A stretch of 46,365 bases of DNA from Pontimonas sp. (GTDB lineage: Bacteria > Actinomycetota > Actinomycetes > Actinomycetales > Microbacteriaceae), in contig JAIOWV010000002.1 of NCBI GenBank assembly GCA_021741945.1, positions 1-46,365 of the forward strand. Reading direction: 5' to 3'. Position numbers and translations under genes: made by a program. The notes below the pieces were generated by a model. The model was not told the DNA's origin, did no database searches, and saw nothing but the letters and a program-made list of their open reading frames with translations. How positions within the stretch are numbered: position 1 is the stretch's first letter; every line of letters begins with the position of its first letter. Shown here piece after piece: positions 32,005-34,507 of this stretch.

Positions 32005-32403
32005 ATGGAACTTGTCAGAGACATCACCCTGATTACCCACTTCTTCGGTTTGGCCATGATCATCGGGCCTTTCCTTATTCAGATGCGGGCCCACACCGGC
32101 TACGCGTTCTCGTGGGTCCTCGCCGGTGGCATCGTCCAGCTAGTAACCGGCCTTCTGTTGACCGGTCTCGCCGAAATGCGTCTGGCTGATGATCCTGACA
32201 TGTCGCTTGATCACACAAAGATTGCGGTCAAGACGGTGTTCGCACTCGTGATTTTCATCGTCGCTCTCATCGCCTACCGTCGCCAAAAGAGGGTGGCACC
32301 TGGCGCCACGCAGCGGAGCCTCTTGCCACTGCTTCACGTGGCAGGGGCGTTCGCTATCGCGAATCTCTTTATCGCGGTGCTGTGGCCGGGCGTGGTGAGC
32401 TAG
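32005..32403 (+). CDS. Small multi-pass membrane protein, unknown function
   Basis: Four hydrophobic segments (THFFGLAMIIGPFLIQ, AFSWVLAGGIVQLVTGLLL, TVFALVIFIVALIAY, VAGAFAIANLFIAVLW). Confidence 0.65.
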   Translation: MELVRDITLITHFFGLAMIIGPFLIQMRAHTGYAFSWVLAGGIVQLVTGLLLTGLAEMRLADDPDMSLDHTKIAVKTVFALVIFIVALIAYRRQKRVAPGATQRSLLPLLHVAGAFAIANLFIAVLWPGVVS

Positions 32404-32861
32404 GACTCTCGAGCCTGTCCAAAGAACTCAGTAAGTAACGAAGCGCACTCCGCCTCTCGCACCCCGCCCACAACTTCATCAACCCGATGGGGTAGGGATC
32501 GATCGCGAACCAGATCGTGGACGCTACCAGCTGCGCCGGCTTTGGGGTCCCAGGCTCCAAAGACAACACGGGAGATTCGAGCCTGCGTTATCGCCCCGGC
32601 GCACATCACGCACGGTTCGAGGGTTACAACAAGCGTGTGCCCTGAAAGATTAGCTGTCTCGAGTGCATGGCCAGCGAGACGAAGAGCCATGACCTCCGCG
32701 TGAGCGGTCGGATCATGGTCTCGCTCCTTCTGGTTACATGCCTTGGCAACAATCACCCCGGCAGCATCAACGACGAGTGCGGCAACTGGCACATCACCCG
32801 TGTGGAGAGCCTCCCGGGCGAGGTCAATCGCAAGCCCCATGAGTTCGTGATCGGTCGCCAT
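32400..32861 (-). CDS. tadA: tRNA-specific adenosine deaminase
   Basis: [12 protein letters not shown] and [12 protein letters not shown] zinc motifs; start at Met 32861. Confidence 0.93.
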
Positions 32862-32916
32862 GCGCCCCACTTTATCCAGCTTCGCGACCAGTGCCCCTCG
32901 AGGTAAGGTGAGCGGC

Positions 32917-33552
32917 ATGGATCTACACGTCGCCAACCACCCTTTGGTCTCCCACAAGCTCTCGGTGTTGCGTGACCAAGACACCCCATCGCCCGTCTTC
33001 CGGGCGCTGACCTCCGAGTTGGTGACGCTGCTCGCTTACGAAGCAACGCGCAACATTCGGACCGAAGACCACCAGATTGTGACCCCGGTTCAGACGACTG
33101 TGGGCAAGAAGCTTGCTAAACCCCGTCCCGTTGTGGTCCCTATCCTGCGCGCAGGCCTGGGAATGTTGGAGGGAATGGTTGCGCTGCTCCCCAGCGCTGA
33201 AGTGGGCTTCCTGGGTATGGTCCGCGATGAAGAAACGCTTCAGCCAAGCGTCTATGCAGAGCGTTTACCCGAGAACCTCTCTGATCGTCAGTGCTTCGTT
33301 CTCGACCCGATGCTTGCAACAGGTGGGTCACTACTCCAAGCCATCAGGTTCCTCGCCCAGAAGGGTGCATCCGACATCACGGCGGTGTGTCTGCTTGGCG
33401 CACCAGAGGGAGTGAAGGCTGTGGAGGAAGGCACCAAAGGGTTGAAGGTCACCATCGTCCTCGGCGCTCTGGATGAAAAGCTCAACGAGAGGGGCTTCAT
33501 CGTCCCAGGCCTCGGCGATGCCGGGGATCGCCTGTATGGGACCGTCGGGTAG
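32917..33552 (+). CDS. upp: Uracil phosphoribosyltransferase
   Basis: [61 protein letters not shown]. Confidence 0.97.
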
Positions 33553-33563
33553 ATCCCGGGGAC

Positions 33564-33593
33564 TTGACGCTTGGCTCACTAGCCGGCGATAAT
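33564..33593 (+). promoter_or_regulatory. Promoter of the poly-cysteine leader ORF
   Basis: TTGACG-N18-GATAAT, then CGGCGC, then ATG at 33600 (leaderless spacing). Confidence 0.75.
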
Positions 33594-33599
33594 CGGCGC

Positions 33600-33668
33600 A
33601 TGAACACTCTGGCCCTGTCGATGCTCCCCCTGGGAGCGCCTGAGTGTTGCTGTCGAATGCGTGACTAA
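33600..33668 (+). CDS. Leaderless 22-aa poly-cysteine leader peptide, MNTLALSMLPLGAPECCCRMRD*
   Basis: Direct translation; immediately downstream of a well-spaced promoter; Cys codons 33645-33653. Confidence 0.7.
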   Translation: MNTLALSMLPLGAPECCCRMRD

Positions 33669-33719
33669 CGTCCCCTTCTTCCGAGGGTCTTCGGACCCCT
33701 TACCGAATCGACAGCAATG
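33615..33719 (+). promoter_or_regulatory. Attenuator-like RNA structure linking the Cys leader peptide to the downstream regulator start codon
   Basis: TTGCTGTCGA (33647-33656) perfectly complementary to TCGACAGCAA (33708-33717); CTGTCGAT (33615-33622) alternatively complementary to ATCGACAG (33707-33714); inner GGGTC-TTCG-GACCC hairpin (33685-33698). Confidence 0.65.
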
Positions 33720-34322
33720 ACTACCTCTTCTTCACCTCGCGAACCTCGTGGGTTCGCTCTCTATGTGGGCGTTACCGAAGGCGACGCCCGAGACGCCGGG
33801 ATTTCCCTAGAAACCCTGGTCAAAGAACTCAAAAAAACCGTCGCCCACCATGTGCCAAGCGCCGACACCCACGCGGCGATTGCGCTTGCCCCGACCGGGT
33901 CGGGCGGCAACAACCTAGAAATTGTCCGCATGGCACTGCACGACCCGGCAGCACTGGCAAAACTCAAGCCAGCGCATCCGGAGCGGGTGCTCTCAGTGGT
34001 GATCGATATCTCGCGCAAGCGGGTCACGATCGATGGCGAGGCCGCGCCACTCACGTTCAAAGAGTTTGCGCTGCTGCAGTTCCTGGTGTTGCGGGAAGGG
34101 CAGACAGTGCGCCGGGAAGTCATTATCGAGGCGCTGTGGACGGCTGGCGATGACGATATCCCCAACTCCCGCACTATCGACGTCCATATTCGCCGGCTTC
34201 GCTCGAAACTTGGTCGCTATGAAGACATTGTTCGCACCGTACGCGGCGCTGGCTACCGGTTTGACCGGCACGCGGATGTCACCATCCACTACGGCGAAGC
34301 CCCGTCACCGGACATGATTTAG
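33717..34322 (+). CDS. Winged-helix (OmpR/PhoB-type C-terminal domain) regulator without a recognisable receiver domain
   Basis: LTFKEFALLQFLVLREGQTVRREVIIEALW...NSRTIDVHIRRLRSKLGRYEDIVRTVRGAGYRFD. Confidence 0.88.
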   Translation: MTTSSSPREPRGFALYVGVTEGDARDAGISLETLVKELKKTVAHHVPSADTHAAIALAPTGSGGNNLEIVRMALHDPAALAKLKPAHPERVLSVVIDISRKRVTIDGEAAPLTFKEFALLQFLVLREGQTVRREVIIEALWTAGDDDIPNSRTIDVHIRRLRSKLGRYEDIVRTVRGAGYRFDRHADVTIHYGEAPSPDMI

Positions 34323-34350
34323 GCCAATTTTCCTAGCAAAATTCTGGGTA

Positions 34351-34379
34351 TAGACAGCGTTACCAATCTGTTATATATT
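34351..34379 (+). promoter_or_regulatory. Predicted promoter in wHTH-phr intergenic region
   Basis: TAGACA-N17-TATATT. Confidence 0.6.
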
Positions 34380-34385
34380 GGCCTC

Positions 34386-34485
34386 ATCGTCAGTTGCGTG
34401 CTTTAGCAGCTCTCGCTCATGTGATTACAAAACACTCTTGGTGCAAGGGAACAGGGCCGGTCGCTCGCCTCAGCGGCCGGCCCTC
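34386..34485 (+). ncRNA. Candidate small RNA, about 100 nt, ending in a 13-bp GC-rich hairpin
   Basis: Promoter upstream; 3' hairpin AGGGCCGGTCGCT-CGCCTC-AGCGGCCGGCCCT (34453-34484); phr has its own promoter downstream of the hairpin. Confidence 0.45.
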
Positions 34486-34507
34486 ATCACGTTATGGAAG
34501 CCCCACA

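Follow-up and report, generated by a model that had tools for sequence, protein, structure and literature searches.

What does a short, cysteine-rich open reading frame do directly upstream of a gene for a DNA-binding regulator? The question is raised by a locus of Pontimonas sp. (Microbacteriaceae), lying in a stretch of 46,365 nt (contig JAIOWV010000002.1 of assembly GCA_021741945.1, positions 1 to 46,365; here, the window) from a 1.13-Mb draft genome, 78% complete. At the level of sequence, the regulator gene is preceded by a conserved upstream open reading frame (uORF) with structured RNA; the cysteine and arginine codons at the end of the uORF are complementary to the start region of the regulator in Pontimonas and in a second genus. 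We think, with a probability of roughly 0.6, that this leader is a cysteine-responsive ribosome-stalling attenuator, kin in kind to the poly-cysteine uORFs of mycobacteria, with a distinct target and added RNA structure. Its elements are the following.

33564-33593, plus strand: sigma-70 type promoter, TTGACG (33564-33569)-N18-GATAAT (33588-33593), 6 nt from the uORF ATG, a leaderless spacing
33600-33668, plus strand: leaderless-type uORF of 22 codons, MNTLALSMLPLGAPECCCRMRD and stop, ATG at 33600; seen in the sequence and in homologs of Pontimonas, Microbacteriaceae and Micrococcaceae
33603-33609, plus strand: helix A, 5' strand, AACACUC (minimum-energy fold)
33615-33622, plus strand: second copy, CTGTCGAT, able to pair with the start-region arm instead (confined to the window and its nearest relatives)
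33623-33637, plus strand: hairpin GCTCCC-CCT-GGGAGC within the uORF (sequence and fold)
33642-33648, plus strand: helix A, 3' strand, GAGUGUU, covering the first Cys codons (minimum-energy fold)
33649-33656, plus strand: helix B, 5' strand, GCUGUCGA, over the last Cys codon and the Arg codon CGA (fold and pairing test)
33685-33698, plus strand: hairpin C, GGGTC-TTCG-GACCC, inside the loop of helix B (sequence comparison only)
33705-33714, plus strand: anti-arm, GAATCGACAG, just before the regulator start; no Shine-Dalgarno (SD) sequence seen
33708-33715, plus strand: helix B, 3' strand, TCGACAGC, pairing with 33649-33656
33717-34322, plus strand: orphan winged-helix regulator, 201 residues, C-terminal Trans_reg_C domain (PF00486), no Cys (Pfam and structure model)

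The promoter, its spacing and the 22-codon frame are all where an initial annotation of this DNA had placed them, and the loop does contain GGGTC-TTCG-GACCC. The uORF itself is widely conserved. Using the regulator protein as anchor, we collected 40 loci, about one per genus, of which 39 were usable and one was truncated by a contig end; since they were chosen from the better-scoring matches, divergent small-genome genera are under-sampled. An in-frame uORF with a CRM ending and promoter-like spacing to its ATG precedes the same regulator in 39/39. The peptide ends in C-C-R-M-C or a close variant, and in 37 of the 39 its final eight residues include at least two Cys (CCC in the window). Outside Pontimonas a typical peptide is MTVHARPTTSFEALGNAGMMMPVRSVMCCRMCA; Pontimonas uORFs are shorter (22-25 residues) and vary in their tails (CCCRMRD, CCCRMCG, CRCRMCA, CCRARMCN). 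In family f6, Micrococcaceae by our reading, most loci fetched carry GTG-started uORFs such as VNKNSTAPAAAEHWPSTPAAADMRCCRMHA. A Cys-rich uORF of leaderless type thus goes with this regulator across the family, and its conservation extends to a second family. There are exceptions: two Pontimonas genomes (G001 and G017) lack the leader and have the regulator directly behind upp, three leaders (L135, L162 and L047) have a single Cys near the uORF end, and the tail of L045 is, by eye, degenerate.

The way in which these leaders vary suggests that the uORF is translated. Over 104 leaders the two Cys codons interchange (position -1, TGT in 88 and TGC in 11; position +2, TGT in 60 and TGC in 38), while the CGA-ATG codons are invariant (104/104). 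The distance from ATG to CGA ranges from 54 to 105 nt with frame and promoter-to-ATG spacing kept, the frame being in part given by our script, which itself required in-frame starts. In L008 and L015 two compensating one-base indels restore the frame ahead of the Cys codons. The uORF thus looks decoded, its Cys residues being kept with both codons in use. The pattern TTGAC...ATAAT-N6/7-ATG is retained in 13 Pontimonas leaders, and other genera have an equivalent promoter-to-ATG spacing, which fits a leaderless start in nearly all leaders. From this spacing we infer that the transcript starts at the uORF AUG.

A covariance model (R1) built on the 87-nt form of the leader found a single copy per genome in 12 Microbacteriaceae genomes and one marginal match in a different family; the other 184 genomes searched, which include that of the window, gave none. 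In a local search of the window, the leader was its top match (33605-33662, 16.8 bits, E 0.11). Rfam gave no match above gathering score in the window, with sub-threshold matches in the leader and other loci, and a search of NCBIfam with the uORF peptides gave none. Occurrences of the core TGTCGAATGTGY elsewhere in the family genomes were, read in context, the same leader or apparent chance matches inside genes.

By its predicted folds, the RNA of the uORF has structure: the 5' end and the Cys-codon segment of the same uORF pair with each other, and this pairing shows covariation. The 126-nt leader of the window folds at -49.5 kcal/mol, against a mean of -31.4 for shuffled sequences (z -4.9), with helix A joining the beginning of the uORF to the first Cys codons. 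Duplex tests favour pairing of a uORF 5' end with the Cys segment of the same leader over pairing with segments of other species, both in Pontimonas (-11.6 native versus -8.3 swapped, p at most 0.0004) and outside it (-10.2 versus -8.7, p at most 0.0002), a result that can be inflated by shared ancestry within clades. Individual folds of the 87-nt leaders give a three-way junction with 46 double-change cells versus 25±4 after shuffling; the contrasts with the controls are clearer in the cells paired (76% versus 30-50%) and in the covariation score (0.139 versus at most 0.111). In hairpin P3, five leaders of A2 change residues G to D and P to S jointly and keep the pair, G-C becoming A-U. Alignment had been proposed as a check for retained Cys codons and for covariation between the Cys-Arg arm and the regulator start region. 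The Cys residues are indeed retained while TGT and TGC vary, and the arms of helix B are invariant; covariation is seen instead in a helix that lies within the uORF.

The complementarity between TGTTGCTGTCGA (33645-33656, Cys-Cys-Cys-Arg) and TCGACAGCAATG (33708-33719) exists just as the initial annotation described it, with 10 Watson-Crick and 2 G.U pairs. Its reach over the regulator AUG is specific to the window species. Moreover, in the minimum-energy fold only 8 bp form, GCUGUCGA with UCGACAGC (33649-33656 with 33708-33715), and AAUG stays unpaired, because the first Cys codons are taken up by helix A (AACACUC/GAGUGUU) with the sequence 5' of them. Just 5' of the start, GAATCGAC is invariant in the 13 Pontimonas leaders and pairs with the Cys-Arg codons; in the other Pontimonas, a short run of variable bases lies between anti-arm and ATG. 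The arm pairs with the start region at z -4.9 in this leader, at a mean z of -3.6 in Pontimonas and at z -4.0 in L032-L039, which belong to one other genus and have a different ribosome-binding site, AAGGATTCGACGACATG. Translational sequestration of the regulator start is thus plausible in these two lineages. The second copy of the arm and the hairpin behind it are present too; the second copy is restricted to the window and its nearest relatives. L003 has UUGUCGA at the position of the second copy and uses it in its best fold. In the best fold of the window CCCCU..AGGG competes with hairpin C; by sequence comparison, other Pontimonas leaders carry a GGGC..GCCC-type hairpin of different letters at that position.

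We propose the following cycle, in which a leaderless start, stalling, a response to cysteine and the direction of the switch are inferred. Ribosomes would load at the 5' AUG and translate toward the Cys codons just before the stop. When Cys-tRNA is sufficient they would pass, terminate and leave, so that the Cys-Arg codons could pair with GAATCGACAG and the SD-less start would be closed. When Cys-tRNA is low, a ribosome stalled on the Cys codons would cover the arm and free the start region, and the regulator would be made. With no ribosome on the leader, the uORF 5' end would pair with the Cys-codon segment and the leader would be closed.

Several results weigh against this proposal. For 82 leaders from other genera, pairing of the arm with the start region is no better than chance (z 0.13), so the complementarity just before the regulator start holds for Pontimonas and L032-L039 and fails as a general rule; helix B is invariant rather than covarying, and is weak or missing in L003, L011, L012 and L014. 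Masking the Cys codons as a ribosome would do barely opens the start region (0.42 to 0.47 in Pontimonas, 0.32 to 0.36 in the window), perhaps in part because the second copy can take over; we do not count this folding as support. Leaderless initiation could be hampered by a helix that contains or adjoins the 5' AUG. As to the three-way junction, slid controls approach its double-change count, so the covariation counts alone are modest, and RNAalifold on A2 missed it and gave a weak, different consensus instead. Start-site pairing as a family-wide feature was rejected (z near 0), and a search for a conserved anti-arm farther out, 50-85 nt 5' of the start, showed a slight trend only (z -0.26). 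By sequence, then, the uORF of most other genera is homologous, without a pairing to the gene start being found.

A rival reading is attenuation of transcription through Rho. A completed uORF would leave a C-rich, G-poor leader for Rho to load on, and a ribosome stalled at Cys would hide the site. Long downstream leaders (median 156 nt) occur in other genera without start pairing, and their C/G median 3' of the uORF is 1.71 versus 1.26 in the regulator gene. In Pontimonas the downstream leader has 32-44% C and 12-22% G, and no terminator-like site was found on the plus strand between 33000 and 34600. As the downstream leaders are C-rich and G-poor, this mechanism keeps some room, and Rho has been proposed for terminator-less mycobacterial cys leaders in a passage of PMC1262725. 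However, the downstream leader of Pontimonas, some 50 nt, offers little room for a Rho site, and Rho would leave the strong complementarity of arm and start in that genus unexplained. We consider attenuation by Rho rather unlikely.

A structured uORF could also tune output without sensing cysteine, by its CGA-AUG codons, by a CRM nascent peptide that slows termination or by folding alone. Decoding of CGA needs a tRNA with inosine at position 34. CGA-ATG is present in all 104 leaders although CGA makes up 106 of the 2075 Arg codons of the same regulator genes, it is kept even without start pairing, and L135 and L162 keep CRM with one Cys near the end. Yet Cys is kept in 37/39 protein-anchored leaders with both Cys codons used, as fits a need for Cys decoding, and we find a uORF without sensing unlikely. 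An incidental short frame with chance complementarity in one genome would agree with the restriction of pairing over the AUG itself to the window species. For the uORF, chance is refuted by its conservation in two families; since frame and promoter spacing are kept and R1 finds one match per sampled family genome outside Pontimonas, coincidence is hardly credible for the locus as a whole. A cysteine-responsive stalling attenuator stays our preferred reading.

Poly-cysteine leaderless short open reading frames of mycobacteria were reportedly described by Canestrari et al. in 2020 (doi 10.1111/mmi.14498). That such leaders act as attenuators there, as the initial annotation stated, is borne out by passages of two citing papers (PMC9031893 and PMC13236596). 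Like them, the leader studied here has a leaderless-type short uORF with adjacent Cys codons near the stop; in Pontimonas and a second genus they can base-pair with the start region of the gene that follows. In mycobacteria the target is a cysteine-metabolism operon, whereas here it is an orphan DNA-binding regulator; here, moreover, the uORF itself is folded with covarying helices, an invariant CGA-ATG follows the Cys codons, there is one copy per genome, and start-region pairing was not found in most genera. A survey of actinobacterial leaders (Seliverstov et al. 2005, PMC1262725) has Cys leaders, in the sections available, only before cys operons and cbs. These, including that of cbs of B. 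longum, share the short frame, the Cys run near the stop and the lack of an intrinsic terminator; the sections available report no leader upstream of this regulator, yet Leifsonia xyli was in the set. Unlike a trp-type transcription attenuator, our locus has no intrinsic terminator with a U-run between uORF and gene. The literature searched, which covered few subscription papers, does not describe this leader. If our reading is true, sensing of Cys-tRNA by leaderless uORFs extends beyond mycobacteria and biosynthetic operons to a regulator that nearly all members of a large bacterial family possess, and would give a first handle on its function. A single RNA segment would then encode a leader peptide, form a covarying structure and pair with the start site, a testable case.

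The regulated gene encodes a transcription factor and no obvious sulfur enzyme, as had been noted, PF00486 being its only Pfam domain. Its structure model (mean predicted local distance difference test score 88) matches the effector domains of GlnR and PhoB in the C-terminal domain only. It thus resembles OmpR/PhoB-type regulators, GlnR being the nearest solved relative, and differs from two-component response regulators of that type, as neither Pfam nor structure matches found an N-terminal receiver domain; the N-terminal 90 residues or so have no Pfam and no fold match. Strong matches beyond the shared winged helix come from nearly all Microbacteriaceae genomes listed and from f6; outside these they are weak or none, and families f7, f9 and f12 showed no RGFALYVG-type ortholog in the stretches fetched. 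From the RGFALYVG motif onward 103 of 104 orthologs are Cys-free, as may suit a protein made under Cys scarcity.

The idea of a sulfur-status relay stays unproven. The PAPS (3'-phosphoadenosine 5'-phosphosulfate) reductase family PF01507 turned up neither in the 78% complete draft of the window genome nor in the drafts of the two relatives closest to it (77% and 93% complete), and the leader is kept in genomes where PF01507 was not found; G001 and G017 have PF01507 and lack the leader. A link to sulfate assimilation through PF01507 is thus unsupported, and the relay idea is therefore not tied to sulfate reduction. Some bacteria with this leader may not make cysteine from sulfate.

The neighbourhood of leader and regulator holds the following features.

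32400-32984, minus strand: tadA-like gene (tRNA adenosine deaminase by eye), near the leader
32860-33552, plus strand: upp (uracil phosphoribosyltransferase by eye), directly upstream of the leader
34330-34379, plus strand: paired direct repeats AATAACG..GATAAC and CGTTACCnnnnCGTTATA at the promoter of the noncoding RNA (ncRNA) below, 11-bp pitch, OmpR-type; in many relatives
34351-34495, plus strand: candidate conserved ncRNA directly 3' of the regulator (transcript about 34386-34495), with promoter TAGACA-17-TATATT, core CACTCTTGGTGCAAGGG (34433-34449) and GC-rich terminator-like hairpin

Of 11 Microbacteriaceae genomes in one sample, 8 have the candidate ncRNA, which has no Rfam match. In G094 the opposite strand encodes it, and in G121 and G178 some 30-40 kb separate it from the regulator; this variation in position and strand points to an independent transcript. 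The operator pattern has its best match at the ncRNA in 7/7 genomes, exact in six and with one mismatch in the window genome. The repeats are possibly the target of the neighbouring regulator. As a finder of a wider regulon the pattern was of no use, near matches beyond the ncRNA falling at unrelated genes. It is tempting to imagine a relay private to Microbacteriaceae, in which stalling on the structured Cys uORF would raise a Cys-free OmpR-type regulator acting at the double direct-repeat operator of the adjacent conserved small RNA, so that Cys-tRNA status would be read out as a small-RNA response; we regard the whole chain as improbable.

TadA makes the inosine tRNA that reads CGA. A tadA-like gene thus lies near a leader with an invariant CGA (33654-33656), which may be coincidence. 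The 3' end of upp also precedes the leader at several further loci. In L123, L134 and L143, from other genera, an inverted repeat GTGCAAG-AAA-CTTGCAC stands just 5' of the uORF ATG and overlaps the leader promoter; it is possibly the operator of another regulator.
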